From Asticcacaulis excentricus (GTDB lineage Bacteria > Pseudomonadota > Alphaproteobacteria > Caulobacterales > Caulobacteraceae): a stretch of 64,000 bases of DNA. Below are positions 3,734 to 36,677 of this stretch, one piece after another. The notes beneath the pieces were generated by a model. The model saw nothing but the letters and a program-made list of their open reading frames with translations, did not search any database and was not told where the DNA came from. Each line of letters opens with the position of its first letter. Positions within the stretch are counted from its first letter, which is position 1. The stretch covers positions 124,001 to 188,000 of the forward strand of contig NZ_AP018829.1 of assembly GCF_003966695.1 (NCBI RefSeq). Reading direction: 5' to 3'. A program made the translations under genes and the position numbers.

Positions 3734-3735
3734 GG

Positions 3736-4318: not shown

Positions 4319-4342
4319 GTCTGTCTGCGTTCTGAGACTTAC
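4315..4342. promoter_or_regulatory. Inverted repeat upstream of the lasso precursor gene
   Basis: GTAAGTCT and AGACTTAC form a perfect 8-bp inverted repeat separated by 12 bases, ending 74 bases before the precursor start. It lies at the junction with the IS remnant. It could be an operator or a weak terminator; nothing in the sequence decides between them. Confidence 0.4.
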
Positions 4343-4416
4343 AGCCAATTCTCTTTCTCCTGTGATAGCTGAACCAAGGCAGGAATGGTCCTGCTGTTTC
4401 ATCATAGGAGATCAAT

Positions 4417-4566: not shown

Positions 4567-4572
4567 GGCAGG

Positions 4573-4598
4573 GGTGGGGGCGCCTTGTCGCCCCCACC
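4573..4598 (+). terminator. Hairpin between lasso precursor and maturation genes
   Basis: GGTGGGGGCG and CGCCCCCACC form a perfect 10-bp, almost all-GC stem with a 6-base loop. It lies between the precursor stop and the B gene start. No U-tract follows, so it is more likely an attenuator or an mRNA 3'-end stabiliser than a full terminator. Such intergenic hairpins are known in proteobacterial lasso clusters and are thought to set precursor transcript above enzyme transcript. Confidence 0.7.
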
Positions 4599-4608
4599 GT
4601 TCGCACCC

Positions 4609-5259: not shown

Positions 5260-5260
5260 A

Positions 5261-6985: not shown

Positions 6986-7009
6986 CCCTGCCTTGGCGAT
7001 GGGCAGGGC
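6985..7009. terminator. Terminator hairpin after the lasso C gene
   Basis: GCCCTGCC and GGCAGGGC pair across a 9-base loop, beginning on the last base of the C gene stop codon. It separates the convergent lasso biosynthesis and isopeptidase transcripts. Confidence 0.6.
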
Positions 7010-7066
7010 CACAGTTCGGCGCCGGGCCTTCGCCCTACCGGAGATGCGCCGTTATCAGTAAAAAAA

Positions 7067-9118: not shown

Positions 9119-9122
9119 TGCC

Positions 9123-21616: not shown

Positions 21617-23590
21617 ATGCCATCATCCCGGATCATGTGGGGGCAAATCTTCGCGGTGATTGCGACGGTGATCATCGCCGTCTGGGCGGCCACCCAATAC
21701 ACGGCCTGGCGTCTGGGGTTTCAGGCCGGCCTAGGCGTTGCGTGGCTGCAAGGGCTGGGCGTGCCTGTCTATCCGCCCCACGCGTTTTTCCTGTGGTGGT
21801 ATGCCTATGACGCCTACGCCCCCAGGGTGTTTCTTGAAGGCGCGGTCATTGCCTCAGGGGGCAGTTTACTGGCCGTACCCCTGTCCCTCATCCTCTCAAG
21901 CTGGCGCACCCGAGCGTCAAGAAAAACCGACACCTACGGGTCGGCGCAATGGGCCGATCTGGATGCCATTCGCGCAAACCACTTGCTGGGCCCGGATGGC
22001 ATTGTGCTGGGCAAATGTGGCAAGGACTACATCCGTCACAACGGGGCTGAACACGTTCTTTGTTTTGCGCCCACGCGCTCTGGCAAGGGGGTGGGACTGG
22101 TCGTGCCCACGCTTTTGACATGGCCGGGCAGCGCCATCATCCACGACATCAAGGGCGAAAACTGGCAGCTGACGGCAGGGTTTCGGGCAAGCTTCGGGCG
22201 CGTCCTTCGCTTCGATCCGACCGCCTTATCATCGGCCGCCTATAACCCCCTCATGGAAATCCGCCGGGGTGAGTGGGAGGTGCGCGATGTGCAAAACATC
22301 GCCGATGTTCTGGTCGACCCCGAAGGCAGTCTGGAGCGACGCAATCATTGGGAAAAGACGAGCCACAGTCTCCTGGTCGGCGCCATCCTGCACGTCCTCT
22401 ACGCCGAAGCCGATAAAACGCTTGCCGGGGTCGCCAATTTTCTGTCGGACCCGCAGCGCTCTCTCGCCACGACCATGTCCGCCATGATGACGACACCTCA
22501 TCTGGGGGATGTAGGCCCGCACCCCGTTGTCGCCTCGGCAGCCCGCGAACTCCTCAACAAATCCGAGAATGAAAGGTCAGGCGTCCTCTCCACCGCCATG
22601 TCCTTTCTGGGGCTCTACCGCGATCCGGTCGTCGCCGCCGTCACCGGGCGGTCCGACTGGCGCATCGCCGATCTCGTCGATCCGCAGACCCCGACAAGCC
22701 TTTATCTGGTCGTGCCGCCCTCTGACATCAGCCGGACCAAGCCCCTGATCCGTCTGATCCTGAACCAGATTGGACGGCGCCTCACCGAAGAACTGAACCC
22801 TGGCGCGCGTCAGCGACTGTTGTTGATGCTCGATGAGTTTCCCGCGCTCGGTCGCCTCGATTTCTTTGAAAGCGCCCTGGCATTCATGGCCGGTTATGGC
22901 ATTCGCTCCGTGCTGATCGCCCAAAGTCTCAACCAGATCGAAAAAGCCTACGGCGCCAACAATTCGATCCTCGATAATTGTCATGTGCGCGTGGCCTTTG
23001 CGACTAATGATGAGCGCACCGCCCGCCGCATATCTGAAGCCCTCGGCACGGCGACCGAACAACGCGACCAGAAAAACTTCGCTGGCCACCGTCTGAGCCC
23101 CTGGCTCAGCCATCTGATGGTCTCGCGCTCAGAAACCGCCCGCCCGCTCCTGACGCCCGGCGAAGTCATGCAACTTCCCCCGTCGGACGCCATCGTCATG
23201 GTCTCCGGCATGGCGCCCCTTCGCGCCAAAAAGGTGCGCTATTATGAGGATGGCCGGTTTGGAGAGCGCGTCCTTTCGCCCCCCAAGCGATCCTCACAAC
23301 TCCCCGGCCGCCCCGACGACTGGACTCGGCTGCCGCTGAGACAACCCGTGACCTGTACTCAGGCAATCGAGGAACCGCCCGCCGTCGCGACGACAAAAGG
23401 CAAGGAAAAGCGTCTGCAACACGAACTTGGGGAAACTGCAAAATCGGTTCAACCATCACTGCCTTTTGACTACGGGCCATCGCAAGAGCGCAGAAAATCT
23501 CAGATCGCCCAGCTTCACGAAGCCCAACGCTCCAGCGGCTCTCTGGCCCAGCAAGCGGTGCTTGATCCAGATGACGGAATAAGCTTGTGA
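21617..23590 (+). CDS. traG: TraG/VirD4-type conjugative coupling protein
   Basis: A 657-residue type IV coupling protein that brings the relaxase-DNA complex to the Trb secretion channel. Two N-terminal membrane segments (about residues 10-30 and 70-95) precede the Walker A motif APTRSGKG at 151-158. The Walker B region RLLLMLDEFPALGRLD is near 400. The tail is Pro/Lys-rich and poorly conserved. GGAGG lies 6 bases before the ATG. The CopG-like gene follows 10 bases after its stop. In related elements trbB comes next, but here it lies about 19.5 kb away. No relaxase gene is seen nearby. Confidence 0.95.
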   Translation: MPSSRIMWGQIFAVIATVIIAVWAATQYTAWRLGFQAGLGVAWLQGLGVPVYPPHAFFLWWYAYDAYAPRVFLEGAVIASGGSLLAVPLSLILSSWRTRASRKTDTYGSAQWADLDAIRANHLLGPDGIVLGKCGKDYIRHNGAEHVLCFAPTRSGKGVGLVVPTLLTWPGSAIIHDIKGENWQLTAGFRASFGRVLRFDPTALSSAAYNPLMEIRRGEWEVRDVQNIADVLVDPEGSLERRNHWEKTSHSLLVGAILHVLYAEADKTLAGVANFLSDPQRSLATTMSAMMTTPHLGDVGPHPVVASAARELLNKSENERSGVLSTAMSFLGLYRDPVVAAVTGRSDWRIADLVDPQTPTSLYLVVPPSDISRTKPLIRLILNQIGRRLTEELNPGARQRLLLMLDEFPALGRLDFFESALAFMAGYGIRSVLIAQSLNQIEKAYGANNSILDNCHVRVAFATNDERTARRISEALGTATEQRDQKNFAGHRLSPWLSHLMVSRSETARPLLTPGEVMQLPPSDAIVMVSGMAPLRAKKVRYYEDGRFGERVLSPPKRSSQLPGRPDDWTRLPLRQPVTCTQAIEEPPAVATTKGKEKRLQHELGETAKSVQPSLPFDYGPSQERRKSQIAQLHEAQRSSGSLAQQAVLDPDDGISL

Positions 23591-23600
23591 GAGAAGCGCC

Positions 23601-23996
23601 ATGAAGAAGGTACGGATGACAATCTATCTCGAACCAGACGTGCATGCCCACCTTGCGGATTATGCCGCGCGTCGTCGTCAACCGCTCTCGATCATGGTCG
23701 AAGCCGCTGTTGCGGCCTTCGTGGATCCTGAGGCACGAGAGAGCCAGATGCTGCGTCGTCTCAGTCGCATGGACCGCCAGCTCGAAAAGCTGTCGAGAGA
23801 CACGAACATCTCAATCGAGGGGTTCTTCGTGTTTATCTGGCTTTGGCTCGCAGCAAATCCCTCAAACCCTGAACCTGACGCCGCCACACGCGCGTCGGTT
23901 ACCGAGCGATACGATAGATACATGGAAGCCTTGGGGCAGCGCCTCGCGAGAGGTGCAAAAAGCAGCGATAGGTTGGCTTCAGCGGAGGAGACCTGA
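23601..23996 (+). CDS. CopG-like ribbon-helix-helix protein of trb loci
   Basis: A 131-residue protein with an N-terminal ribbon-helix-helix pattern (KKVRMTIYLEPDVHAHLADY, then SIMVEAAVAAFV). A coiled segment (residues about 48-70) and a hydrophobic stretch (GFFVFIWLWLA, 77-87) follow, and the tail is charged. Proteins of this type regularly sit between traG and trbB in sphingomonad-type conjugative elements and probably repress the transfer genes. The normal neighbour trbB is displaced by the cargo region that begins directly after this gene. Confidence 0.88.
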   Translation: MKKVRMTIYLEPDVHAHLADYAARRRQPLSIMVEAAVAAFVDPEARESQMLRRLSRMDRQLEKLSRDTNISIEGFFVFIWLWLAANPSNPEPDAATRASVTERYDRYMEALGQRLARGAKSSDRLASAEET

Positions 23997-24210
23997 AAGA
24001 TCCGACCGTTCCAAAAGGATGGTGCGACAAGCCTGGTCCTTGCGAGGGATCGCCCCTTCTCTTTGAACTTCAAAAGCGGTTGCCTTTTCCTATTGCCAGG
24101 GAACGATTGTCAGAGAAGCGCCCACTGCGGACGTTCCAGGAACGCTAGAAGTCTGGTCCGATAGCGGACCTCCAACCGCACCCTTGGGACAATCACCTGT
24201 ACGGTAGCTG

Positions 24211-24640
24211 AATCTTCTCAGAAGTTGGAGCCTCCAGCAAACCCGGGGCGGCTCAGTCCTTTTTGCACGCCGGTCTACAGCCAGTCTTTTTTACGCGTCT
24301 GGTCATGACGGATCAGAAAGCGATGCAACACAAATTGACTGATTACAATGCCTTTCAAAGACAAGGCATCGCGCAGTTCGTGGAGTGTGCTGCCGCGGGT
24401 GTCCGCGAGCCAGCCCAGTATAGCCTCAGCGTGGGCCTCGGTTTTTCGAGATCGGCGATCGCCCCCTTGGGGGACTGGGGCGCAGGTGCCCCCGATCTTT
24501 CTCTTGATGGCGACAACGGCTTACGCTGGCGGCGCTCACATTATACCGTCCTCCAGCATCCCTGTGCGTCGCGCCACCTGCCACCGCAGCCAGAACGCGT
24601 TCCCGAATATCCACCGAAAGTGCAGTTGCCATACCAGTAG
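24211..24640 (-). mobile_element. Insertion-sequence scars: IS3-type end and frameshifted IS630-like transposase start
   Basis: At 24211-24256 the sequence resembles a terminal repeat common in alphaproteobacterial IS3-family elements (on the minus strand it contains GAGCCGCCCCGGGTTT and GGAGGCTCCAACTTC). From 24632 down to about 24260 the minus strand begins an IS630-type transposase (MATALSVDIRERVLAAVAGG...), which then continues only through frameshifts. No complete transposase remains. The rest of 23997-24867 has no gene that I can support. Confidence 0.65.
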
Positions 24641-24867
24641 GCCTCCCTGTCGACAGACAACTTGAACCAGATCATCGCTGATTTGGGAATCCCCCCCGAT
24701 TCATTCGGAAGGGGAAACGCTCTAGCCTGGTTTTCGACTCCCGGTTACGGCGTGACCGCTCATAGCGCCGACATCACAAAAAAAGCAAATGTTCGTCAAC
24801 TGTTCTTCAACTTGGTCGTTTCGCAGCGACGGGGCCATTGGGCTGAAAACGTGAGCGAAGAGCAGCG

Positions 24868-25113
24868 TTACCAATCCAAATGAACCGGACACCGAGTGGC
24901 GACAAAACGGGCTTTCACCGACATGTAACAACCACAGAAACCGCACACGAGCCGCGCCTGTGCGATGTCACGATGAGGACACTTCGAACAAAGAGCAATT
25001 CTAGCGTCAAAAACTTCAGAAGCTACAAATGCAAGCCCTGTTTTCAATACATCTGAAGCTGTCGCAATAAATGAATTTGAAGGTACATCTTCGATCATTC
25101 GATCCTCTCTCAT
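24868..25113 (-). CDS. Small zinc-ribbon protein at the end of the microcin operon
   Basis: An 81-residue protein with a Cys pattern CSKCPHRD ... CGFCGCYMSVKARF ... CP, which looks like a metal-binding ribbon of the type in small DUF6171-like proteins. Its start overlaps the thioredoxin-like gene stop (ATGA), so it is the last gene of the six-gene minus-strand operon. It has no signal peptide and is probably cytoplasmic. It could be an immunity protein, since it is the only small cytoplasmic orphan of the operon, but nothing proves this. Base composition is AT-rich like the rest of the operon. Confidence 0.75.
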   Translation of the reverse strand: MREDRMIEDVPSNSFIATASDVLKTGLAFVASEVFDARIALCSKCPHRDIAQARLVCGFCGCYMSVKARFVATRCPVHLDW

Positions 25114-25490
25114 GACGCGTCCATATCCTCATTCTGCTTCACGCAATTATAGATAAGTTCATGCAGCTTTTCAGCGTGTTCCCGCGGAGATCCTTCTGAA
25201 TAAAACCCAGCCCACTTCCGACGCAATTGACCTTTTTGAAAAAAAAGAAAGCCGGGAAACTCAGCCAATTTAAAAATTTCCAAGACTTTATCTAAAGCAT
25301 CATCTTCTGCTGTAATCCAAGTGAATACTGCAACGTCCATTTCCATTTCCACAATAGATAATAACGTTTCACTCAAATTGTGGCAGGGTTTACATCCGTC
25401 CATACCTACCATCAAGAAGCAGGCATCGCATTGCGTTATTTCGGCTTGAACCTGCGCAAACGTTAGGCCATGGAGATCAATTAATTGCAT
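25110..25490 (-). CDS. Thioredoxin-like protein with CKPC active site
   Basis: A 126-residue protein with a thioredoxin fold pattern: active-site Cys33-Lys-Pro-Cys36 (MVGMDGCKPCHNL), a central strand region (DVAVFTWITAED), cis-Pro-like EFPGFLFFQKGQ and a C-terminal helix. No signal peptide is visible with the start chosen at 25490, which overlaps the preceding gene by 10 bases; a longer upstream reading exists but lies inside that gene. In an operon whose precursor has six cysteines, it may act on precursor thiols or disulfides. It lies between the ClpP-fold gene and the zinc-ribbon gene. Confidence 0.85.
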   Translation of the reverse strand: MQLIDLHGLTFAQVQAEITQCDACFLMVGMDGCKPCHNLSETLLSIVEMEMDVAVFTWITAEDDALDKVLEIFKLAEFPGFLFFQKGQLRRKWAGFYSEGSPREHAEKLHELIYNCVKQNEDMDAS

Positions 25491-26314
25491 ACATAAGCAC
25501 CCTGTATCTGTCGATGAATAAAATTTCGTCCTTTGTATAACTCCTGAACTATAAACCATTCCTTTGCTGATTTCGGAAACCAGTAATCAACAATTTTTCT
25601 TTTTGTACATGATCTATACATCAATGGGTCTGCAACAGTCAAAGTCTGAGATTTTGCTGCACTGTCTAATAATTTCAATTCATCGGAGAGATCATACCAA
25701 TACAGACCCACTTTATGTGCAAGGCGAAAATTTTCATGCGTCTCATAAACGTGAACAGCAACACCCACGTTTCGCTTAAGTTCTCGAGCTAATTCGTCCG
25801 GATCAGACACTCCAGCATTTACAAGAGAATTTTTTATTTTTTCTTCGAGTTTATCATCAACTTTCGATGGCCCCCCGTGAAGTTGTATAGTCGAAAATGG
25901 AAGGACAGTAAGTCTTCGAGCCGCCACTGAGACATAATTTCCACAACTAGACGCGCATCGTCCCAGTACTTCAACTGGCCATCCCTTAGCATAAATTATA
26001 TTTGCCGCTGCGATCGAACTCTCAACCTCTCCACCTGCCGAAGTTATTCTCAGTTTTAAATTTTTACGATCGATATGGCGCCCCAGACATTTCAACAGCG
26101 GACCGTCGGATGGGCCGACATACCTTAGCAAGGTGCCGCCATTTTCAAGAGAGCAAATTGGGGCCGCCCCTTGCGCAACAGCCCTCTCAGCATCCCGCGC
26201 TTCCACTGCAGCCTGCAGTCCGGGCGACTCAACCTCTGCAACCGAGGACCCGAAAGACATCGCAGCCGCAAAAAAACACGCAATCCAAAACATATAAACC
26301 GACTTTAGCTTCAC
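25481..26314 (-). CDS. Exported ClpP/crotonase-fold protein (COG3904-like)
   Basis: A 277-residue protein with an N-terminal signal peptide (hydrophobic residues about 7-23). The core resembles periplasmic ClpP-fold proteins: ITSAGGEVESSIAAANII (91 onward) matches the substrate and oxyanion-binding turn, GRCASSCGN places a candidate nucleophile at Ser122, and IQLHGG gives His146. A serine protease-like function at the cell surface or in the periplasm is plausible; the acidic residue is not identified. It is directly downstream of the Cys-rich precursor gene. Such a gene is not part of the known microcin V-type systems, so it may be a processing enzyme or a protease that gives self-protection. 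Confidence 0.8.
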   Translation of the reverse strand: MKLKSVYMFWIACFFAAAMSFGSSVAEVESPGLQAAVEARDAERAVAQGAAPICSLENGGTLLRYVGPSDGPLLKCLGRHIDRKNLKLRITSAGGEVESSIAAANIIYAKGWPVEVLGRCASSCGNYVSVAARRLTVLPFSTIQLHGGPSKVDDKLEEKIKNSLVNAGVSDPDELARELKRNVGVAVHVYETHENFRLAHKVGLYWYDLSDELKLLDSAAKSQTLTVADPLMYRSCTKRKIVDYWFPKSAKEWFIVQELYKGRNFIHRQIQGAYVCN

Positions 26315-26393
26315 GGGAGCCCCCTTAGAAGTGCGCTCGAGACAATCACGAGCGCACCATTTCCAAGTCCATCAGTACGACGGTAGTTCTAAA

Positions 26394-26540
26394 TCAAACC
26401 CAGGTACCGTTGTCGGAGCACTCTTCTTTGCAAAACCGAAGACAGCTACCAGATTCATTGCAGATATAAGTACACGTGCGTGTACAAACTTGATCCCCAC
26501 CCACAACTTCGCTCAACTCGTCTACAGACAACTCTCTCAT
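26394..26540 (-). CDS. Cys-rich double-glycine microcin-like precursor peptide
   Basis: A 48-residue peptide. The 15-residue leader MRELSVDELSEVVGG ends in Gly-Gly and matches class II microcin leaders (microcin V: MRTLTLNELDSVSGG). The predicted 33-residue core starts DQVCTRTCTYIC and holds six cysteines at core positions 4, 8, 12, 18, 22 and 26, that is C-x3-C-x3-C-x5-C-x3-C-x3-C, a symmetrical pattern, followed by a short tail ending GTWV. GGAG lies 6-7 bases before the ATG. An in-frame upstream ATG gives a longer form without leader character. The C39-peptidase transporter gene lies 90 bp upstream on the same strand. Disulfide bonds, or cross-links made by an unknown enzyme, are inferred. 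I know no described family with this spacing. Confidence 0.87.
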   Translation of the reverse strand: MRELSVDELSEVVGGDQVCTRTCTYICNESGSCLRFCKEECSDNGTWV

Positions 26541-26629
26541 AAAAATTCTCCATGACATACGATCGCGGGAAATCCCCGCAAATACAATCATACATGTCAA
26601 ATAATATGATTCAAGTGAATTTTTAAATT

Positions 26630-28780
26630 TCAGCGAGAAATCTCAAATGATTTAAGATCAATACCATCGGAAATTACATATGAATTTACTTCCGTTATTT
26701 TAGCGCCATATACATCCACAATTCTATCGGCTTTTTTTATTAGAGAAGGTCTATGAGCGACTGCGATTCTAGTAATGTCTAATTCACGTATAATTTGCGA
26801 TATAATTTCTTCTGTTTCTTCATCTATATTGGCGGTCCCCTCATCTAAAATCAATATTTTCGGTTTGCGATATAGCGCTCTTGCCAAAAGCAATCTCTGT
26901 TTCTGGCCTCCAGATAAACTCGACCCCATATCTCCCACTAGAGTATGATAGCCCATCGGCATTTTCAGTATTTCATTGTGAATTTGCGCGATTTTGGCGG
27001 CTTCGTGAATTGTAGCAGTATCGAAATCCGAACTAAAAAATGAGATATTCTCGGCAATGGTCCCCGATAAGAGGTTATCATTTTGAGCTACATATCCAAC
27101 AGATGCCCTCCAGCTTCTCCAGCGAGCGGGGGTTGCCTCATGGCCATCCAACTTTATGGTTCCTTCGTTAGGTGGCATCAAGCCGAGCATTAGCTTGACC
27201 AACGTGCTCTTCCCACCACCGGAAGGGCCAGTTATTGCAATATACTCTCCAGCTTGGATCTTGAGCGTTGCATCCTTAAAAACCCACCTGTCAGCGTCTC
27301 CATAACGATAAGATAAATTTTGAAGTTCGATATCACCTTCAACGGCTCGCAAGTCCTCCTGCCCCCCCATATCTTCAGAAGTGGCATGCACTAGGTCACT
27401 CAATCGATCCATATGTAGTGAAATTAAGCGGAATTGTGTGAATTGCTGCACCAATGCTAGTGATCGGTCGACAAATATTTGTCGAAAGGCCAAAAACGCC
27501 ACCAACATACCGACTGACAATCCTTCGTTATTTAAGATCGATTTTGCGCCGAAATATAGTATCGCAACCGTCTGAATACCGTTCGCTGCCATGACGATGG
27601 AATTTAAGAAAATCTCTACGCGTGCAGATTTTGCTGCGGAATCGAAGACAAGGCTAAATAGGTTCCTCCAGTTAGCTTCACGGACAGATTCAAAACCCAT
27701 GATTTTGATCGGAGAAATCGCCCGTAGAGTCTCCATCAAGTATGTTTGCTCATTAGCTGAATTCGCAATTTGTGCCTCTGACCGATCGCGAATGATTGGA
27801 TAAAAGGCCCAATTGATCGCACCAATTAGGAACAGTCCCGCAAAAACTATTGCAGACAGTTTCATAGAATAAAAAATTAAAATTGATGCAGATACCAGCG
27901 CCATGGTGCCATCGATTAGCACTGAAGCAATACCCTGAGTAAGAACTTGTTGAATGGTCTTAGTCGACCCAAAGCGGGAGAGTATGTCTCCCATATGCCG
28001 TTTTTCAAAAAACCCAATCGGAAGCTTCATTACATGCTGCATCAAATTGCCTACTATCTGATATACAAGCTGAAAGCCTAAAAGCCGAATGGACCATTCA
28101 CGAAGACCGCTAATCACAGCAAGTAATATTGCCAGTATAAAAAAACCTGCCGCTACGACAATGAGTAAGCTGTCATCGCTTCGCCCGATTGCTTCATCAA
28201 TGACAATTTGAACTTGGAACGGTGCTGCTAATACCAGCAATTGAAGTGACAACGAAACGAACAAAATATATACAAACGATTTGTACAATCCCTCAAATCC
28301 GGACGCCAGATTTTTTAATCCAATTTTCGATTTATCAAATATAATATTAAAATTTTGCGGTTTTACTATCTCCAGTGCCACACCAGTAAATTTTTCAGAG
28401 AAAGCTTCAATGCCGTATTCTATTTCCCCTAAATTTGGATCTAATACGGTAAATTTTTTACCTTTTACACTTTTCAAAACAACGAAATGGTTTAGTTCCC
28501 AATGCAGGATTGCGGGCATCTTGAGCTCACCCAAATGATGCAATTCCAATCTTAATGCTCTAGCAGACAAGCCTAGCTGCTGGCATAGGTCGATCATTGT
28601 AGACAGATTAAGCCCGTTAAGACCCACATTAAATCGTCTTCTTATTCCATTTAGGTCAATCCTATGCCCGTGAAAATTTGACACCATTGCTAGGCACGCC
28701 AATCCACACTCTGATGCCTCAGCCTGATAAATCATGGGCATGCGATAAGAATTTTTAATGCCAGTCCAAATATTGGTCAT
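26630..28780 (-). CDS. Peptidase-containing ABC transporter (PCAT, CvaB-like)
   Basis: A 716-residue bifunctional exporter. The N-terminal C39 peptidase (about residues 14-140) has Gln19, Cys25 in ASECGLACLA, His98 in LNHFVVLK and Asp114 in VLDPNLG, so it should be active and cut after Gly-Gly. Six membrane helices (about 170-440) precede the ATPase, which has Walker A GPSGGGKST, signature LSGGQKQRLLLARAL and Walker B ILILDEGTANID. The start at 28780 overlaps the HlyD-type gene stop by 4 bases (ATGA); longer in-frame starts exist. Together with the adaptor gene it would cut the leader of the 48-residue precursor and export it through a TolC-like channel encoded elsewhere. Confidence 0.95.
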   Translation of the reverse strand: MTNIWTGIKNSYRMPMIYQAEASECGLACLAMVSNFHGHRIDLNGIRRRFNVGLNGLNLSTMIDLCQQLGLSARALRLELHHLGELKMPAILHWELNHFVVLKSVKGKKFTVLDPNLGEIEYGIEAFSEKFTGVALEIVKPQNFNIIFDKSKIGLKNLASGFEGLYKSFVYILFVSLSLQLLVLAAPFQVQIVIDEAIGRSDDSLLIVVAAGFFILAILLAVISGLREWSIRLLGFQLVYQIVGNLMQHVMKLPIGFFEKRHMGDILSRFGSTKTIQQVLTQGIASVLIDGTMALVSASILIFYSMKLSAIVFAGLFLIGAINWAFYPIIRDRSEAQIANSANEQTYLMETLRAISPIKIMGFESVREANWRNLFSLVFDSAAKSARVEIFLNSIVMAANGIQTVAILYFGAKSILNNEGLSVGMLVAFLAFRQIFVDRSLALVQQFTQFRLISLHMDRLSDLVHATSEDMGGQEDLRAVEGDIELQNLSYRYGDADRWVFKDATLKIQAGEYIAITGPSGGGKSTLVKLMLGLMPPNEGTIKLDGHEATPARWRSWRASVGYVAQNDNLLSGTIAENISFFSSDFDTATIHEAAKIAQIHNEILKMPMGYHTLVGDMGSSLSGGQKQRLLLARALYRKPKILILDEGTANIDEETEEIISQIIRELDITRIAVAHRPSLIKKADRIVDVYGAKITEVNSYVISDGIDLKSFEISR

Positions 28781-30024
28781 TTCGCAAGGCGCCCGGCTGC
28801 GAATATAGGATCCATAATCCACTCCCAAATACTACGCTTATCTATTATTATTTCTGCGGTAAAATGCATTCCGGGTTGAAGTGGGATTTTTTCATTATAT
28901 GCCTTCACAAATCCATCCTTCAATTTTGCCCTAACCTTAAACACAGGAGAATCTATCTTAACTCCGGGAGCATTTATCTCTGAAGGAGCAATGACCGTAT
29001 TCGAAACGGAAATGATAGTTCCATGACCAGTACCGAATTTTTGATACGGAAACGCCGAGTACTTCAACGAAACGTTCTGGCCAACTTTTATAAATCCCGC
29101 AGCTTCTGACGTTACAAACATCTCAGCAAATAGAGCACCGTTCTCGGGAACCATAACAACTGCAGTCATTCCCTCATTCATATACTGTCCACGTTCAACC
29201 AGTATGATTGATGCTCGTCCGTTTATCGGAGATTTTATTACGTACTTTCCACTGTCGAAAATTTCATTTATTTGTTGCTTATTATTAATTCTGGAAATAT
29301 TTGCAACTTGTCCCTGTTCCTTCAATTTTGCATTCGAGCTTTCAATCTCCGACTCAGCAGCTTGAATCTGTTGTTCCAAAACCATTAATTGAGAATTATA
29401 GGAGGCGTAACTTTCCTTCGCGCTCAGATAATTGTTTTCCAGCTCATTGAGCCTTGAGCTTGAAATATAACCTTTTTCAAGTAGTTTTTTGTTTTTTTCC
29501 AGTTCTGAAAATGATATTTGCTCCTTACGGCTAAACAGTGATAAATTCTCTTTTACGTAATTACGCTGCTCTACCAACATTTCTTTCTTTGCGTAGAGCC
29601 CACCAATTAACGCTTTCAATTGCTCATATCTGGCCTTTTCAGCAAAATCAAAGGCATCGGCTTCCATTTTCTTGAGAGACACTCGTCGTGTGAGAGCATT
29701 TTCTGAGTCGCTATCCGTCGAAGACTTTACGGTCAATATAGCTTCACCAGCTCTCACCGGATCTCCCTCATTGACAAGGACATCCTCAACAACGCCGGCT
29801 TGTTCCGCGGACAAGCGACTTATCCCACCGATAGGCACCAACCAGCCGATTACCGATTCCTTGCGCGAAAATGTCGCCATTGATCCGAACAAGGCAGAAC
29901 ACAGCACCGTAGCTGAAAGAAAGAAACCGAATATCGTCCATCGCCCCCCTACCGAAAGTATCACCTTCCCATCCAACCGTTTGGCGGAAGCTTTGAACAC
30001 TTCTTTTCGAAATAGATCGCTCAA
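28777..30024 (-). CDS. HlyD/CvaA-family membrane fusion protein
   Basis: A 415-residue periplasmic adaptor. It has a short cytoplasmic N-terminus, one membrane helix (about residues 29-50) and a biotinyl-lipoyl-like half (AEQAGVVEDVLVNEGDPVRAG). A long coiled-coil hairpin (about 105-245) follows, then the returning lipoyl half (KSPINGRASIILVERGQYMN) and a beta-barrel region. This is the layout of CvaA-type adaptors that link PCAT exporters to TolC. It is the first gene of the microcin operon and overlaps the PCAT gene. Codon use is AT-rich, unlike the flanking transfer and imu genes, which indicates recent transfer. Confidence 0.93.
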   Translation of the reverse strand: MSDLFRKEVFKASAKRLDGKVILSVGGRWTIFGFFLSATVLCSALFGSMATFSRKESVIGWLVPIGGISRLSAEQAGVVEDVLVNEGDPVRAGEAILTVKSSTDSDSENALTRRVSLKKMEADAFDFAEKARYEQLKALIGGLYAKKEMLVEQRNYVKENLSLFSRKEQISFSELEKNKKLLEKGYISSSRLNELENNYLSAKESYASYNSQLMVLEQQIQAAESEIESSNAKLKEQGQVANISRINNKQQINEIFDSGKYVIKSPINGRASIILVERGQYMNEGMTAVVMVPENGALFAEMFVTSEAAGFIKVGQNVSLKYSAFPYQKFGTGHGTIISVSNTVIAPSEINAPGVKIDSPVFKVRAKLKDGFVKAYNEKIPLQPGMHFTAEIIIDKRSIWEWIMDPIFAAGRLAK

Positions 30025-30063
30025 GCACTACCCCCCTATGGCTGCAAAGCGAACTAAGTCTTT

Positions 30064-30300
30064 CTATCTATGATTGTCAAGCTCCACGACGTTGACCCTG
30101 GTTTTATCCCGTTTGAGTTCGCTCCGGCAGTTGGCGCCCCATGTCGCTGTAGAACGGCCGCAGGTGCTCACGAATGTGGGAGAGGTCAACGAACCGGTCG
30201 ATTGAGCGGATAGATGGTCGGTTGGCACATGACGTTCGAGGTTGAACTCGTAAAACAGTGCCGCCTGCATCACCGTCCGCTCGCCCATCATGACCGAAAC
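30064..30300 (-). mobile_element. Fragment of an IS1182-like transposase gene
   Basis: Minus-strand sequence starts MMGERTVMQAALFYEFNLER, typical of IS1182-type transposases, then shifts frame and ends within about 80 codons. It is a decayed scar between the microcin operon and dnaE2. Part of it (near 30090-30135) resembles sequence at about 60175-60215, so related scars exist elsewhere in the window. Confidence 0.6.
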
Positions 30301-30384
30301 CCCTGCTACAAAAGCAGTGAATCAGGACTTCAGGTCGTTAGCAACTCCGACTTTTTCAACACTATCGGCCAAAACCGGTCTCCT

Positions 30385-33300
30385 TCACCGAAAATCCCTA
30401 CTCTTCTGCACCCAGCCCCCACCCTGCGCTCTGGCCACTCGTGCATCCTGTCCGGGGCCACCATTGCGGAACTCATCGCCGGGCATACGGGGCACACTGA
30501 GCGGTGTGTCGCGTTCACCGACACTGGCCAGAAGCGGTGACAGATCGAAGACGGAGCGCGCGATCAGGTGCACCACCTCGCCTTCGCGCTGGGTATAGCC
30601 GTTGATGGCCACAAAGGACGAGCCATAGACGGCCGCCTTATGAGCGACCGCGACCTTCTCCCAAACCACCACATTGGCGTCGCGGGTCTCGTCCTCAAGC
30701 GTCATGAACATCACGCCATTGGCGGAGCCGGGTTTCTGGCGGACGAGCACCATGCCCGCCACGCTGACGCTGCGCCCATCTTTTGAGGCCATGGCGTCCG
30801 CGCAGGTCATCAGGCCGCGTTGGCGCAGCTCTTCGCGCAGGAACGAGACGGGGTGCGTCCCGAGAGTGAGGCCCAGGTGATTGTAGTCTTCGACCACCCT
30901 GGCCCCGGCCGTCATGGGTTTGAGGATCACTTGCGGTTCAGGCATAGCGGTTGTCTCTCCTGCCCCCGCCTCCAGATGATCAAATAAGGGTAAGGGATCA
31001 TCGCGCAGGGCACGGATGGCAAACAGGGCGTCCCTGCGATTTAAACCGAGGGCGGGAGAGAACGCATCGGCCTTAGCCAGTTGCCGCAGCGTCGCCACCG
31101 GGGTACGCGCCCGCTTCCACAGATCGGGGATGGATGTGAAGGGGTGATCTCCGCGGTACAGGATCATCCTAGCAATGTCCGCGCTTTTTAGCCCTTTGAC
31201 GAGCCGGAAGCCTAAGCGCACGGCATAGCGTCCCGGTCGGTGTGTCTCCTCCAGCGTACAGTCCCAGCGCGAGGCATTGACGCAGACCGGGCGGACCGCC
31301 ACGCCGTGTTCCTTAGCGTTGCGCACCAGCTGCGCCGGGGCATAGAAGCCCATGGGCTGGGAGTTGAGGAGCGCGGCGCAGAAGACGTCCGGATGATGGC
31401 ATTTCATCCAGGAGGAGGCATAGGCGATCAGCGCGAAGGAATAGGCGTGCGACTCCGGAAACCCATAGGAGCCAAACCCTTCCAGCTGGCTGAATATCTG
31501 TTCGGCATAGTCCCGTGTGTAGCCGTTTGTGAGCATCCCCTGCACGATCTCGTCATGGAATTTTGAGACGCCGCCGGTGTGTTTGAAGGTGGCCATGGCG
31601 CGGCGGACCATATCGGCGCGCCCCGGCGAGAAGCCGGCCGCCTTGATGACAACCGACATGGCCTGCTCCTGAAACAAAGGCACGCCCAGGGTTTTCGAGA
31701 GAATGGCCTCCAGTTCCTTTGAGGGATAGGTGACCTCTTCCGTGCCCTCACGCCGTCGCAGGTAGGGATGCACCATACCGCCCTGGATGGGGCCAGGCCG
31801 GACGATGGCGACCTGCACCACAAGGTCATAGAAGGTCCGCGGCCTGGTGCGCGGCAGCATGGCCTGCTGGGCGCGGCTTTCGATCTGGAAGACACCGACC
31901 GTATCGGCCTTGCGGATCATGGCGTAGGTGCGCGGGTCTTCGGCCGGGATGGTGGCGAGATCAAGCTTTATGCCCTTGACCTCAGCGAGCATATCGAGCG
32001 AGCGCTTCATGCACGACATCATGCCAAGCCCCAGGCAATCGACCTTCATGAAGGCCAGCACGTCGATATCGTCCTTGTCCCATTCGATGACCTGCCGGGC
32101 TTTCATGCGCGCGGGCTGGATCGGCACCAGTTCGTCGAGCCGGTCGTGGGTCAGGACAAAGCCACCCGGATGCTGGCTCAAATGCCGCGGCACGTTCATC
32201 AAGAGCAGGTGCAGGTCGATGGCGAGCTTCAGGCGCCGGTCATTGAGGTTGAGCCCTAAGCCTTCGGCCTCGGTCAAAGTCATGCCGCCCCGGTGCCAGT
32301 GGGTCACCTGTTTGGAGATCAGCTTGATCGTATCTTCGGGATAGCCCATCACCTTGAGCACGGCCCGGATGGCCCCGCGCGTGCGGAACCGCGTGACGAC
32401 GGCGGTAAGGGCGGCGTGCGAACGGCCATAGGTCTCATAGACCCATTGCAGCACCTCCTCACGGCGCTGGTGTTCGAAGTCCACATCGATATCGGGCGGC
32501 TCCCCCCGCTCTTCGGAGATAAAGCGCTCGAACAGAAGATCGTTGCGATCGGGATCGACGCTCGTAATGCCCAGCACAAAACAGACGCAGGAGTTGGCGG
32601 CCGAGCCTCGACCCTGACAAAGGATGTCCTGCGAGCGGGCGAAGTTGACGATGGCATTCACCGTCAAAAAATAGGGCGCGTAGTTGAGCTTCTCGATCAG
32701 GGTCAGTTCATGGCGCAGAAGGTCGATGACCTTTTGCGGCACGCCTTCCTGGTAGCGCCGCTTCGCGCCTTCCCAGGTCAGTTTTTTGAGGGCGTCGATG
32801 GCTGACAGTCCCGGTAAAAGCTTTTCTTCCGGATATTGGTATTTAAGCTCGTCGAGGCTGAAACGGCACTGATCGGCGATCTCGGCGCTGCGCCTTAAGG
32901 CACCCTCATAGCCCGGAAGCAGGCGATACATCTCCTCGGGCGTCTTCAGATAGCGATCGGCGTAGCGGTGGCGCAGATCCCCCAGGGTGTCGATGGTGCA
33001 GTTGTGGCGGATACAGGTGACCACGTCGTGCAACTGGTCGCGCTCATGGACATGATAGAGGACGTCATTGGTGACGACGGTGGGCACGCGCACCCTGGCC
33101 GCCAGGTTCGACAGGTCATGCAAACGCAGATGATCGCCCTGCCGGCGACGCAGCGTCAGCGCCATATGGGCGCGCTCGGCAAAAATGGTCTTGAAGCGAC
33201 GCAGGCGCTGGGCGCAGACCTCGTCGGCCTCGTCCGGGAGGAAGATGCCGATCAGACCTGCATTGAAGTCCTCGACATCCTGCCAGGTGAGGTCACAGCG

Positions 33301-33612
33301 CCCCTTGCCGCCCCGCGCCTTGCCCACCGTCAAAAGCCGCGACAGGCGCGCATAGGCGGCCCGGTCAGTGGGATAGACCAGAAGCGAAGACCCATCGCTA
33401 AGATCGAGGTGACAGCCGACGATCAGGCGCACGCCTGTCGCTTTGGCGGCCACATGGGCACGCACCATACCGGCGAGTGTGTTGCGATCCGCAATGGCCA
33501 GCGCCTCAAGACCCAGCGTCTGTGCGCGCACGAACAGCTCATCTGGGGATGAACAGCCCTGCAGGAAGGAGAAGTAGGACGCGCACTGAAGCTCGACATA
33601 AGGTGGCTGCAT
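30385..33612 (-). CDS. dnaE2: Error-prone DNA polymerase DnaE2 (ImuC)
   Basis: A 1075-residue C-family polymerase alpha subunit of the SOS mutasome. The N-terminal PHP domain (YVELQCASYFSFLQGCSSPD) has the changed metal-binding residues typical of DnaE2, and the polymerase core shows PDIDVDFEHQRREEVLQWVY and the aspartates of FMKVDCLGLGMM. An HhH region and an OB-fold (GMVLVRQKPGSANGVMFMTL) follow. It is the last gene of the LexA-controlled imu operon and overlaps imuB by one base. It would carry out translesion synthesis together with ImuA and ImuB. As an extra copy on mobile DNA, it could raise mutation rates in new hosts. Confidence 0.96.
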   Translation of the reverse strand: MQPPYVELQCASYFSFLQGCSSPDELFVRAQTLGLEALAIADRNTLAGMVRAHVAAKATGVRLIVGCHLDLSDGSSLLVYPTDRAAYARLSRLLTVGKARGGKGRCDLTWQDVEDFNAGLIGIFLPDEADEVCAQRLRRFKTIFAERAHMALTLRRRQGDHLRLHDLSNLAARVRVPTVVTNDVLYHVHERDQLHDVVTCIRHNCTIDTLGDLRHRYADRYLKTPEEMYRLLPGYEGALRRSAEIADQCRFSLDELKYQYPEEKLLPGLSAIDALKKLTWEGAKRRYQEGVPQKVIDLLRHELTLIEKLNYAPYFLTVNAIVNFARSQDILCQGRGSAANSCVCFVLGITSVDPDRNDLLFERFISEERGEPPDIDVDFEHQRREEVLQWVYETYGRSHAALTAVVTRFRTRGAIRAVLKVMGYPEDTIKLISKQVTHWHRGGMTLTEAEGLGLNLNDRRLKLAIDLHLLLMNVPRHLSQHPGGFVLTHDRLDELVPIQPARMKARQVIEWDKDDIDVLAFMKVDCLGLGMMSCMKRSLDMLAEVKGIKLDLATIPAEDPRTYAMIRKADTVGVFQIESRAQQAMLPRTRPRTFYDLVVQVAIVRPGPIQGGMVHPYLRRREGTEEVTYPSKELEAILSKTLGVPLFQEQAMSVVIKAAGFSPGRADMVRRAMATFKHTGGVSKFHDEIVQGMLTNGYTRDYAEQIFSQLEGFGSYGFPESHAYSFALIAYASSWMKCHHPDVFCAALLNSQPMGFYAPAQLVRNAKEHGVAVRPVCVNASRWDCTLEETHRPGRYAVRLGFRLVKGLKSADIARMILYRGDHPFTSIPDLWKRARTPVATLRQLAKADAFSPALGLNRRDALFAIRALRDDPLPLFDHLEAGAGETTAMPEPQVILKPMTAGARVVEDYNHLGLTLGTHPVSFLREELRQRGLMTCADAMASKDGRSVSVAGMVLVRQKPGSANGVMFMTLEDETRDANVVVWEKVAVAHKAAVYGSSFVAINGYTQREGEVVHLIARSVFDLSPLLASVGERDTPLSVPRMPGDEFRNGGPGQDARVARAQGGGWVQKSRDFR

Positions 33613-35132
33613 CAGTCGAACTTCCCATGCAGATACCAGTTGAGAGAGCCGGTGCCGCTGTGTTCGCCATCACCGGCCCGGAAGACCCAGAAGCGCTCGC
33701 CCGTGGCCGCTTCAAGGATATAGTAGTCGCGCACCTTGCCAGTTTCGGCCTCGCTGACCCACCACTCCCCCTTGACGCGTTCAGGGCCATCGGCACAGAC
33801 GACGCTGTAGCGCTGACCGCGCCAGGTAAAGGCGCGCGGCGGATGATCGGGCAAGGCCGCGAGCGCCTGCACCGGTTCGGGGCGATAAAGGCGCGCCGGG
33901 CGGCGATAGCGGGCATTGCGAGGTGAGCCAATCACGGATGCCGAAGGCGCGAGCCGTCTGACCGAGCGCTCCGGGATGTCGCTTGCCACCTCCACCGCGC
34001 GGTAAAGTCGGCCTTCGCCGTAGCGATTGCTGAGCGTATCCCATAGATCTTCGACGTCCGGGCGGCTGGGTGCGGCAAAGCTCGTGGCGACCTGGGTGAA
34101 GGACAGCGGTTCGACCAGAGGGGCGGACAGGGTCATTTTGTCGATGCCGAAGCCCGGCTCAACGGTTTCGATCTTATCGATCAGCAGTTTCGACAGGCGC
34201 TTGACGTCGCGCACCGGCTTCGCGGTACCGACGGATATGGTCTCGATGCGGCTATCGACGCGCACAAAGTGCAGATCGAGCCGTCGCGCCCCCAGCCCCG
34301 CCTCTTCCAGTTTCAGGCATAAGGCTTCAGTCAAACGGCGGGTATATTTCTCAAGCGTGTCAGGTGCCCCGATGGGCTCAAAGAAAGCGCGTTCGACCGA
34401 GATCAGTTCGGGGACGTGGACGGGCTCAATGGGCTCGGCCAGTCGCCCAAACGCCATATCGACGCGCCGCCACAGGTCGGGACCATAGCGCAGCGCCAGC
34501 GGGGCGCGCGGCTTGGCCGCCAGTTCACCGATCGTGTCGATACCGATGAGGCGCAACTCCTCGACCGTCTCGGCCGACAGGCGAAGCGCCGCGACCGGCA
34601 GGGGCAGTATCGCTTCGGCGGACTTACACGCTGGAATGATCAGCGAAGACTCACCCGCAAAGCGCACCAGGGCATGGGCGGCCCCCCAGCTATCCGCGAC
34701 GGTGGCGTAGGCTGTGATGTGGAGGGCCTCAAGACGCCGCAGCATATCGGAGACCAGAGCGGCCTCTCCCCCATAGAGATGGGCCGCGCCGGTGATATCA
34801 AGGATCAGACCATCCGGCGGATCCGCGGCCACCACGGGTGAGTAGAGACGCAAGGCCCAGACGGCGAGTGTCTCCAGCGCGTCGGCGTCGCGCTCCAGCT
34901 CAGCGTCACGCACCTCAAGTCCCTCGATCAGCACCTGCGCCTTGGCCACCGCCATGCCCGGTCTAACGCCGCGTTGATGAGCGTGCGCATCGACCGCCGT
35001 GACGAGGCGTCGGCTGCCGACCTTGCTCTGTAGCACCAGAGGTCGCTCAAGCGGTAGCGCGTCTAGGCCCACAGCGCGGCGCAGACGATCGGTCCCCCAG
35101 AATGGCAGATAGAGGCTGAGGTAGCGGGCCAT
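33612..35132 (-). CDS. imuB: ImuB, inactive Y-family polymerase-like mutasome protein
   Basis: A 506-residue Y-family polymerase homologue that bridges ImuA, DnaE2 and the beta clamp in known imu systems. The fingers/palm part starts MARYLSLYLPFWGTDRLRRA; the usual catalytic aspartates are not at their expected places, as in other ImuB proteins. A little-finger region and a C-terminal ImuB-type tail (RYRRPARLYRPEPVQALAAL ... EWWVSEAETGKVRDYY) follow. It overlaps dnaE2 by one base and lies 6 bp downstream of the 172-residue gene at 35139-35657. Confidence 0.94.
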   Translation of the reverse strand: MARYLSLYLPFWGTDRLRRAVGLDALPLERPLVLQSKVGSRRLVTAVDAHAHQRGVRPGMAVAKAQVLIEGLEVRDAELERDADALETLAVWALRLYSPVVAADPPDGLILDITGAAHLYGGEAALVSDMLRRLEALHITAYATVADSWGAAHALVRFAGESSLIIPACKSAEAILPLPVAALRLSAETVEELRLIGIDTIGELAAKPRAPLALRYGPDLWRRVDMAFGRLAEPIEPVHVPELISVERAFFEPIGAPDTLEKYTRRLTEALCLKLEEAGLGARRLDLHFVRVDSRIETISVGTAKPVRDVKRLSKLLIDKIETVEPGFGIDKMTLSAPLVEPLSFTQVATSFAAPSRPDVEDLWDTLSNRYGEGRLYRAVEVASDIPERSVRRLAPSASVIGSPRNARYRRPARLYRPEPVQALAALPDHPPRAFTWRGQRYSVVCADGPERVKGEWWVSEAETGKVRDYYILEAATGERFWVFRAGDGEHSGTGSLNWYLHGKFD

Positions 35133-35138
35133 GACACC

Positions 35139-35657
35139 CTACACCGCCTGTCGCGTGAGAGGATCGACCCAGTCGGCCCAGGCTTCAAGCAGGGCGTCAC
35201 GTTCAGCCGTCAGGACGTCGAGTGGCACGGCCACGGAGGCCGAGCGACGAATGGGCTCGCTGAGGCCGGAAACATGGATGTCGTAGATCGGCTGATGACG
35301 GCTGACGCTGCCCCAGCCGCCCACCGTGAGCGTCTTCGTATAGATGGGACTGACGGCTGAGATGGCCTGAAGACTGATCAGAAGATGGGTCAGGTCGAAC
35401 AGGCCCGGCGATACGCCGTCCCTTTGATGATAACGCCGCCAGGCGGCGACGAGTTGCGCATGCGCGCGTCTGAGTGCGGCCCTTTCCGCTTCTGAGCCAT
35501 CCTCCGACTGGAACCACAGGGTTTGAGGCAGGCCCTGGATATGGACCGGAAACGCCAGATGCGTGTCTTCATAAAGGCCGTTTGCCCATACCGGCCCGAT
35601 AGCGACGAGGGGCGCCAGCGCCACCACCTTCCCCGCACAGGTGACAAGTTCACTCAT
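35139..35657 (-). CDS. Unknown protein inside the imu operon (172 residues)
   Basis: No family recognised. The protein starts MSELVTCAGKVVALAPLVAI and has an even, well-folded composition without signal peptide or membrane segment. It overlaps the preceding 85-residue gene by 4 bases and ends 6 bases before imuB, so it must be co-transcribed with the LexA-controlled cassette. Textbook imu operons run imuA-imuB-dnaE2 directly, so it is an accessory gene. Mutasome partner, damage tolerance or unrelated passenger are all possible. Confidence 0.8.
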   Translation of the reverse strand: MSELVTCAGKVVALAPLVAIGPVWANGLYEDTHLAFPVHIQGLPQTLWFQSEDGSEAERAALRRAHAQLVAAWRRYHQRDGVSPGLFDLTHLLISLQAISAVSPIYTKTLTVGGWGSVSRHQPIYDIHVSGLSEPIRRSASVAVPLDVLTAERDALLEAWADWVDPLTRQAV

Positions 35658-35911
35658 GCGATATCCGCGTAATCGGTCTGATAGAGATCAACGACGTCGA
35701 GGATCTGGGGGGCGCGCGGCAATTGCGGCAGGGGCGAGCCATCGGCGTGGTATCTGTAGCCGGCCACATCGTAATAGACACTACCTTTGGGACCGATCTT
35801 CTGCACGCAGGCCATATAGTCGCGCTCATGGCGGGCGACCGTGAGCAGGACGGCGGCCCCATCGAACAGGGCTAATTGGGTGTGTTCATCCGGTGTCTCG
35901 AATAACTGCAT
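35654..35911 (-). CDS. Unknown small protein inside the imu operon (85 residues)
   Basis: An 85-residue protein starting MQLFETPDEHTQLALFDGAA, with a strong AGGAGGGAG ribosome-binding site. The opening resembles the clamp-binding motif style (QLxLF: QLALF), which would fit contact with the beta sliding clamp. This is inferred from the motif only. It lies 13 bp downstream of imuA and overlaps the next gene (ATGA). No family name is known to me. Confidence 0.78.
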   Translation of the reverse strand: MQLFETPDEHTQLALFDGAAVLLTVARHERDYMACVQKIGPKGSVYYDVAGYRYHADGSPLPQLPRAPQILDVVDLYQTDYADIA

Positions 35912-35924
35912 AGTCTCCCTCCTC

Positions 35925-36677
35925 TTAAGATGCGGCCCGCAGGGTGTTTGTCATTTGGGCGTCCCCGCATAGGCGGATACGCCCCTCCCCGTCACAGGCC
36001 TCGACCTCGAAATCATGACACTCGCCGCCCCGGGCCCGGATCAGTTCGAGCATCCAGCGCGCGCGTCCGACGCCGCGCACCGGCAAAGGCGCCGAGTTCA
36101 GTTCGGTGACGCGCCAGCGGGTAAAAGCGGCTGTGGGGCGGCCAAAGTCTTTGGCATCGACCTGCCGGCGCCAGCGGCGCACGATCAGGGCGAGCGTCCC
36201 TGTGCCCTCCGCCGCCATCAGAAGACGTTGCGAGGCGACACGGGAGAGATTGGCGAGTTCGCCCACGACCGCGGTGAGGCCGCCGTGGCGCAGGGCTTCC
36301 TCACAAGCCCCCAGCACGGCGGCCTCATCGCCGGCTTCGAAGAAGACGACCTTGTCATCGGTGAGGCCTGAACGGGCGAGTGCCGGGGCAAACAGATCAG
36401 GCTGCGTATAGGCCCAGAGAACACGCCCCCCAGAGCGCGCCGCGATCCCGGCGGCAAAGGCGATGGCGGCGGCCCCATCTACCGCGCCATTGGCGCCACC
36501 GGCGATCTCGTGCAGAGCCCCAAAGGCCAGCCCCCCCTTGGGAATACGGGTGTCGATGTCGGGAACGCCGAAGGGGAGAACGACGCGTCTGGGCGCACTG
36601 TGGCCGCCGATATGGTCGATCCGGTCTCGCAAAGCGCTGAGGACGGCGGGGTTGGCAGCGGGCATGACATCAAGCAT
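35925..36677 (-). CDS. imuA: ImuA, RecA-like mutasome protein
   Basis: A 250-residue RecA/SulA-like protein that supports ImuB and DnaE2 in SOS mutagenesis. Visible features are LPFGVPDIDTRIPKGGLAFG with GALHEIAG (the ImuA N-terminal core), GRVLWAYTQPDLFAPAL and the ARWMLELIRARGGECHDFEV end. Two starts are possible, at 36677 and 36665; the second has the better-spaced AGGA. A LexA box lies 24 bp upstream of the first. It is the first gene of a five-gene operon. Confidence 0.93.
   Translation of the reverse strand: MLDVMPAANPAVLSALRDRIDHIGGHSAPRRVVLPFGVPDIDTRIPKGGLAFGALHEIAGGANGAVDGAAAIAFAAGIAARSGGRVLWAYTQPDLFAPALARSGLTDDKVVFFEAGDEAAVLGACEEALRHGGLTAVVGELANLSRVASQRLLMAAEGTGTLALIVRRWRRQVDAKDFGRPTAAFTRWRVTELNSAPLPVRGVGRARWMLELIRARGGECHDFEVEACDGEGRIRLCGDAQMTNTLRAAS

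Follow-up and report, generated by a model that had tools for sequence, protein, structure and literature searches.

Class II microcins have a size of about 5–10 kDa (PMC10233263), and the immunity proteins described for them are small (51–216 residues), located in the inner membrane and encoded next to the precursor (PMC10233263, PMC9746304), with genes that adjoin and often overlap the precursor gene (PMC10233263). No common sequence signature unites the immunity proteins of Gram-negative peptide bacteriocins, and most are predicted by their closeness to the precursor, small size and membrane helices (PMC9746304, PMC10233263); one published pipeline retains only candidates of 30–250 residues (PMC9746304). 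Here we analyse a six-gene operon in a 64,000-nucleotide stretch of Asticcacaulis excentricus DNA (contig NZ_AP018829.1, positions 124,001 to 188,000; hereafter the window), in which the gene next to a precursor peptide with a double-glycine (GG) leader encodes a 277-residue ClpP-fold protein, which would escape that pipeline because of its length. We propose, at an even chance, that the operon exports a disulfide-containing peptide bacteriocin, with the ClpP-fold protein as cognate immunity protein and a thioredoxin-like/zinc-ribbon redox pair. We infer the killing, the immunity and the disulfide pattern from sequence.

The operon resembles class IIa microcin systems (microcin V type) in its GG leader, its peptidase-containing ATP-binding cassette transporter (PCAT) with a C39 triad, its HlyD adaptor and its mobile setting. 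It differs from them in a 33-residue core with six mirror-symmetric cysteines, in a ClpP-fold partner in place of a small membrane immunity protein, and in its thioredoxin-like and zinc-ribbon genes. Neither PMC9746304 nor PMC10233263 uses ClpP, Clp, zinc ribbon or thioredoxin as a word in its main text, and among the literature matches listed there was no report of GG-peptide/ClpP pairing or of ClpP-like bacteriocin immunity.

Glycocin clusters (sublancin, glycocin F, thermoglycocin) combine a PCAT with thioredoxin-like oxidoreductases, and their hairpin cores contain nested disulfides (PMC12457901, PMC6405829). The window operon likewise has a PCAT and a thioredoxin-like protein, and the symmetry of its core cysteines and the loss of an inner cysteine pair in relatives suggest that its core may also be a hairpin with nested disulfides; unlike glycocin clusters it is Gram-negative, has no glycosyltransferase among its six genes, and carries zinc-ribbon and ClpP-like genes. 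Glycocin cysteine spacing is longer than CX3C. The Cdz system of Caulobacter, probably of the same bacterial family, exports small glycine-zipper proteins through an ABC transporter and adaptor from a cluster without a TolC homologue, and its CdzI has three predicted transmembrane domains and no obvious homologues (PMC5380434). A small exported peptide, an ABC transporter with adaptor and the lack of a TolC gene in the cluster are common to both systems, whereas the window core has no GxxxG zipper and its partner is a ClpP-fold protein rather than a three-transmembrane CdzI.

A six-gene operon for peptide export

The operon consists of the following genes.

28777..30024, minus strand: HlyD-family membrane-fusion adaptor (TTG start; Pfam HlyD_3, 7.4e-15)
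26630..28780, minus strand: PCAT, C39 peptidase plus ABC transporter (Pfam Peptidase_C39, 1.1e-34; ABC_tran, 1.2e-34)
26394..26540, minus strand: precursor peptide, 48 residues (open reading frame, ORF; homologues in locus L161 at 6306-6461 and 6598-6747)
25481..26314, minus strand: ClpP-fold protein, 277 residues (GTG start; ClpP profile match)
25110..25559, minus strand: thioredoxin-like protein with CKPC (thioredoxin profile match)
24868..25113, minus strand: zinc-ribbon protein, CxxC..CxxCGCxMxxKA..CPxxxW (weakly DUF6171-like)

A preliminary description of this DNA had reported six closely spaced or overlapping genes on one strand in AT-rich DNA; the coordinates bear this out, and the GC content of 25001–30000 is 0.40–0.45 against 0.56–0.65 in the adjoining 5 kb on either side. 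The HlyD and PCAT genes share a 4 bp overlap, as do the zinc-ribbon and thioredoxin-like genes, and the precursor gene lies 89 bp from the PCAT stop and 79 bp from the ClpP-like gene. For the thioredoxin-like gene the ATG at 25490 is the likelier start, because relatives are without most of the N-terminal extension.

The exporter assignments of that description, an HlyD adaptor and a PCAT with an intact C39 triad, were corroborated by the Pfam matches and by C25, H98 and D114, all present and invariant against the nearest homologue. The adaptor also matched TIGR01843 (9.6e-41, 140 bits, under the subfamily cut-off of 209); the four small operon proteins score under Pfam cut-offs. A PCAT with a C39 triad and a membrane-fusion protein thus stand beside the precursor, as in class II microcin systems, and peptide export through this gene set appears well supported.

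The precursor consists of a 15-residue leader ending in GG (MRELSVDELSEVVGG) and a 33-residue core with the pattern CX3CX3C-X5-CX3CX3C. The leader scored 14.0 bits against TIGR01847, below the cut-off of 15.7; its pattern MREL..EL..V.GG resembles the microcin V leader. The core forms three nested cysteine pairs centred on the same point, a mirror symmetry found in 0.8% of random placements of six cysteines in 33 positions, which is unusual but not decisive alone. At 3.75 kDa (3749.53 Da monoisotopic, reduced) the core is below the class II microcin size range, and no small inner-membrane immunity protein was recognised among the six ORFs (no transmembrane predictor was used), the adjacent ORF being the ClpP-fold protein with its signal peptide. 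Of the earlier interpretation as a class II microcin operon, the microcin-type GG-peptide export set with cysteine-rich cores stands, kept in the sister operon described below, and the class II label is doubtful.

A sister operon retains all six components

A ClpP-family search of 148 genomes from the family of Brevundimonas diminuta matched 15 genomes; 14 of these loci were examined, 13 of them new (the other, L160, is the same stretch as L031). Two of the 14, L161 and L173, carry a PCAT, HlyD, a GG peptide and a ClpP-like gene; the remaining 12 showed no convincing GG peptide or PCAT. L161 lies in genome G846, whose genus includes Asticcacaulis sp. AC466 (G730, locus L031). It holds all six window components with two precursors, on one strand throughout and in a different gene order.

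2202-2420: zinc ribbon
2442-4580: PCAT
4580-5821: HlyD
5829-6203: thioredoxin-like protein (CDAC)
6306-6461 and 6598-6747: peptides
6822-7637: ClpP-like protein

Between L161 and the window the PCATs are 49% identical, and pairwise comparison gave 2e-11 for the zinc ribbons and 4e-6 for the thioredoxin-like proteins. Both L161 precursors retain an MREL...EV-G leader, and both cores read CX3C-X17-CX3C. Aligned with the window core, they keep cysteines 1, 2, 5 and 6, while the inner pair, 3 and 4, is jointly missing; this joint loss is what nested pairing predicts and agrees with a hairpin that has nested disulfides. The earlier expectation that precursor homologues would keep the GG and the cysteines therefore held in part, since GG or GA and cysteines are present, though only four of the six. 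The precursor is more than a chance ORF, because homologues occupy this sister operon.

Precursor searches recovered little else. The window precursor had no match in 72,556 plasmids; against 100 genomes (its own and 99 relatives) 22 matched at E up to 1, its own included, with a best other value of 0.0148. One weak match (G018:C1:2147121-2147243, E 0.579) coincides in its coordinates with an L161 peptide; this single-precursor search had therefore lost a true relative in the noise. With three precursors as query, 3 of the 148 genomes matched, namely that of L161 and two with matches covering the leader alone. The preliminary description had also looked to a conserved small gene beside related transporters; this failed for the six-cysteine peptide, none of which was found within about 1.5 kb of six other class-wide PCATs (L106–L111; PCATs in 7 of 385 genomes including the window's own). 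In two further PCAT loci from the same genus as L161, GG peptides stand with other partners, identified by eye: an ATP-grasp-like ORF (L178, 3384-8227) and a radical-SAM-like ORF (L179, 6365-10003; peptide with YSMGG repeats).

A ClpP-fold partner of double-glycine peptides

The ClpP-fold and thioredoxin-like identities suggested earlier were upheld by profile matches to PDB sequences. The ClpP-like family profile matched ClpP at 1.9e-5, with the Pfam Clp protease model under its cut-off. Ser122 and His146 align with the active-site Ser and His of ClpP, placing two residues of the triad, and are invariant in 30 of 30 aligned proteins, with Cys120 and Cys124 also conserved; the motif C-x-S-x-C-x-N-Y...H occurs in 92 of 101 family ORFs. 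Cleavage by this protein is possible, because the ClpP-site Ser and His are kept. By eye, the window protein has an N-terminal signal peptide, and most paired ClpP-like members have a signal peptide, lipobox or membrane anchor.

Searches of plasmids with tblastn returned 7 records for the window ClpP-like protein and 26 and 19 for related queries. Loci from Klebsiella (L010), Vibrio maritimus (L012), Pantoea dispersa (L015) and Sphingomonas (L023, with the exporter genes on the opposite strand) combine a ClpP-like gene with HlyD, a PCAT and a GG peptide, a four-part set absent from the other plasmid loci inspected (L011, L016–L022, L024). Genomes of 84,980 species yielded 249 relatives; among the best 80 of these 249, a C39 protein was present in the locus for 6. 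Brevundimonas diminuta has three peptide/ClpP pairs, one beside PCAT-HlyD, and Asaia has two tandem pairs after an HlyD fragment. Coordinate differences within pairs include -3, 0, 4, 12, 41, 52, 65, 73, 75 and 80. None of the eight class-wide ClpP places outside the window (L135–L142; 8 of 385 genomes with the window's own) had a GG-leader ORF within 150 bp or a PCAT at the cut-offs used; L141 and L142 gave chance-like regular-expression matches about 1 kb off.

Across 119 ClpP-like ORFs (114 loci), 15 had a GG-leader ORF on the same strand no more than 150 bp away (14 once L166, an apparent pair rejected as an artefact of overlapping frames, is set aside), 14 had a PCAT within 3 kb, and 19 had either (18 without L166). 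Control genes had a GG-leader ORF in 13 of 1104 cases, six of the 13 being probably genuine GG peptides from these same loci. The adjacency is significant (15/119 against 13/1104, Fisher p 3.6e-9; 7/83 in the species-wide set of the best 80 of 249 relatives alone, p 2.3e-4) and is biased by ascertainment, the query alignment having held PCAT-linked proteins that enrich the set. The count omits L027 and L028, which represent the stretch of L119 in the same species, and two duplicates, L120 (of L119) and L160 (of L031). In four Vibrio loci (L051, L054, L069, L073) the ClpP-like gene has a PCAT within 3 kb but lacks a GG peptide within 150 bp, and these were treated as PCAT-linked only; Massilia L052, with a 599 bp gap, was dropped as a pair, its close tree relatives being unlinked.

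On a tree of 101 proteins (without the unlinked loci L011, L019, L021, L022, L024, L137–L142, L165 and L168–L172), the GG label (19 rows, including Massilia and the four Vibrio loci) required 12 changes, at least 9 of them forced by supported branches and all 12 together fewer than in any of 500 shuffles. The association has thus been gained or lost many times, and these results point to recurrent recruitment of ClpP-like proteins by GG-peptide systems.

Two of the B. diminuta GG peptides (L119, 6786-7142 and 8108-8506, beside ClpP1 and ClpP2) have different middles and a common C-terminal tail, PAADLAGLY, which their paired ClpP-like proteins might recognise as a tag. Vibrio thalassae L051 (3067-9344) contains a GG peptide, a radical-SAM-like ORF, HlyD, a PCAT, an acetyltransferase-like ORF and a ClpP-like gene (enzymes by eye).

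The thioredoxin-like/zinc-ribbon module

The thioredoxin-like family profile matched thioredoxins among PDB sequences (best 1.7e-6; Pfam Thioredoxin under its cut-off), and together with the CKPC motif this places the protein in the thioredoxin superfamily. The zinc-ribbon profile matched nothing among PDB sequences at E 1, and DUF6171 scores were 16.0 bits for the window protein and 23.3 for that of L161, below the gathering value of 27. No export signal was seen in the thioredoxin-like or zinc-ribbon proteins.

As a single query, the thioredoxin-like protein matched only itself in 299 order genomes and nothing in plasmids, whereas a two-member alignment matched 5 of 249 order genomes, its own included. 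Two of the five, L188 and L189, contain a GG peptide together with thioredoxin-like and zinc-ribbon genes; L189 adds a PCAT and HlyD, and L188, at a contig end, has its zinc-ribbon gene on the opposite strand. A four-member alignment matched 89 of 240 genomes class-wide, all others than its own below 36 bits and most of their ORFs about 300 residues or longer; at 26 of these places inspected, the zinc ribbon was absent. The high-scoring subfamily (window, L161, L188, L189) is thus well apart from other thioredoxins, which scored at most 34 bits among the loci examined, and the zinc-ribbon profile matched at all four of its loci and at no other examined locus at E 0.5. Against plasmids, the window zinc ribbon gave 6 weak matches, and the L189 zinc-ribbon and thioredoxin-like queries gave none.

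The two genes look like a module, and the five peptides linked to it have core cysteine counts of 2, 4, 4, 4 and 6, all even. We infer a role in cysteine handling, since the pair co-occurs and glycocin clusters join PCATs, thioredoxin-like enzymes and nested disulfides. This module and the recurrent peptide/ClpP-like pairing are additions to the earlier interpretation.

Proposed mechanism and alternatives

In the proposed mechanism, the 48-residue precursor would be recognised through its GG leader and cleaved by the PCAT's C39 domain. As expected for these families, the core would then be exported via the PCAT, HlyD and an outer-membrane protein of TolC type whose gene lies elsewhere. The core may form a hairpin with nested disulfides C1–C6, C2–C5 and C3–C4, as its mirror symmetry and the joint absence of the inner pair in relatives suggest. 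Animal antimicrobial peptides with CX3C-spaced beta-hairpins, which are cationic and have nested cross-strand disulfides in two rungs, offer an analogy only and are not homologous; a helical hairpin is a possible alternative core shape. From their co-occurrence, the thioredoxin-like and zinc-ribbon proteins may be redox/chaperone partners that hold the cysteines in an export-competent state or determine how they pair. The exported ClpP-fold protein would provide cognate self-protection at the periplasmic face by binding the peptide, most likely also cleaving it with the conserved Ser-His pair. The nisin resistance protein (NSR) and the peptidase that cleaves microcin C destroy their antimicrobials (PMC4698656, PMC10233263) and are precedents in principle for proteolytic protection, NSR belonging to S41 and not to the ClpP-like subfamily.

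We favour an immunity role for the ClpP-fold protein because it is paired with precursors, with short gaps or start-stop overlaps, because minimal loci have no other obvious candidate, and because a solitary copy exists in AC466. The paired genes adjoin or overlap precursors as class II immunity genes do; in L010, L012 and L015 no other immunity candidate was seen between peptide and exporter genes; and B. diminuta and Asaia have a separate ClpP-like copy for each precursor, L161 being the exception. The solitary ClpP-like gene of AC466 (L031, 8896-9672) shares 71% identity with its L161 counterpart and, in a genome that gave no C39 match at E 1e-8, resembles an orphan immunity gene.

Several observations weigh against this immunity reading and the hairpin that goes with it. 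Some 85% of the 119 family ORFs lack both a GG peptide within 150 bp and a PCAT within 3 kb, so the ClpP-like family has other roles too; four of eight genomes carrying the family have no C39 match; and the ascertainment bias of the adjacency statistics applies here. L161 has one ClpP-like gene for two peptides, and a signal peptide is not evident in the product of that gene. No ClpP-like gene occurs in the examined stretches of L188, where the contig ends, and L189; the L189 peptide has only two core cysteines, and L023 has another small hypothetical gene beside HlyD, a possible further immunity candidate. The nested-pairing argument is built on three sequences, the core is acidic (charge -2.3) and not cationic, and a Chou-Fasman calculation found arm 1 beta-favoured and arm 2 not clearly so.

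Among the alternatives, the ClpP-fold protein could be a maturation or quality-control protease that trims the peptide after export or removes misfolded precursor from the envelope, self-protection coming from something else. Its occurrence with precursors of differing type, including the Vibrio locus with the by-eye radical-SAM-like ORF, the shared PAADLAGLY tail as a possible recognition tag, the single copy for two peptides in L161 and the many solitary homologues would fit such a protease. Type I export by PCATs, however, probably bypasses the periplasm, B. diminuta and Asaia have one ClpP-like gene per precursor rather than a single shared protease, and between the peptide and the exporter genes of L010, L012 and L015 no further immunity gene is apparent; we consider this protease somewhat unlikely.

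The exported peptide might instead be a signal, a metal binder or a component of a surface structure. PCAT-exported GG-leader peptides serve in signalling too (PMC7018657), and the acidic core is compatible with a role other than killing. The patchy distribution, fast-diverging cores, multiplied pairs and solitary partner gene nevertheless look like a bacteriocin/immunity system, and we judge a non-antibacterial peptide unlikely.

Covalent cysteine modification or metal insertion by the thioredoxin-like and zinc-ribbon proteins would make the product a new class of ribosomally synthesised and post-translationally modified peptide. We find this quite improbable: the two proteins do co-occur in four of four loci, and related PCATs in the genus of L161 stand beside ATP-grasp-like and radical-SAM-like ORFs, but both proteins score below the Pfam cut-offs for modifying enzymes, and the even cysteine numbers of the five cores are what disulfides need. 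Finally, although flanking ORFs read by eye as transposase fragments could mark a decaying, unexpressed island remnant, six open frames, intact active-site residues and the whole set kept in L161 make that highly improbable.

Genomic setting

The mobile-element setting given in the preliminary description was also supported: the operon lies between traG (21617) and a trbB-like T2SSE gene (43558), about 20 kb apart, and its small gene set is probably mobile. An imuA-imuB-dnaE2-like cassette (30385-36677; Pfam run for imuB) lies in the same interval, and the contents of the interval are perhaps cargo of a conjugative element. Of the ORFs flanking the operon that resemble transposase fragments, the one tested (24263-24640) had no Pfam match. 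Promoter and terminator scans gave chance-level results, with no Rfam match in 23000–31000 and no tRNA in the 64-kb window.

Elsewhere in the window, 4585-11720 contains lasso-peptide type genes for a transglutaminase-like B protein, an Asn-synthase-like C protein, an S9 peptidase and a TonB receptor; no precursor was seen upstream, where ORFs at 3965-4499 look like insertion sequences by eye, and the precursor may be lost. Two 352-residue ORFs on opposite strands (53585-54643 and 61699-62757), identical in their first 60 residues, are probably copies of one insertion sequence bracketing 55–61 kb.

Significance

The most interesting feature of this operon is the recurrent ClpP-fold partner. 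We suggest tentatively, at rather less than an even chance, that envelope ClpP-fold proteins may constitute an unnamed class of bacteriocin immunity protein, repeatedly recruited by proteobacterial GG-peptide systems, that would bind and cleave the cognate peptide and would here guard against a three-rung disulfide-ladder peptide, with a dedicated thioredoxin-like/zinc-ribbon pair handling its cysteines. The symmetric cysteine ladder and this module would provide a compact disulfide-peptide scaffold. If the pairing reflects immunity, the ClpP-like genes would offer a searchable handle for peptide bacteriocins in alpha- and gammaproteobacteria.

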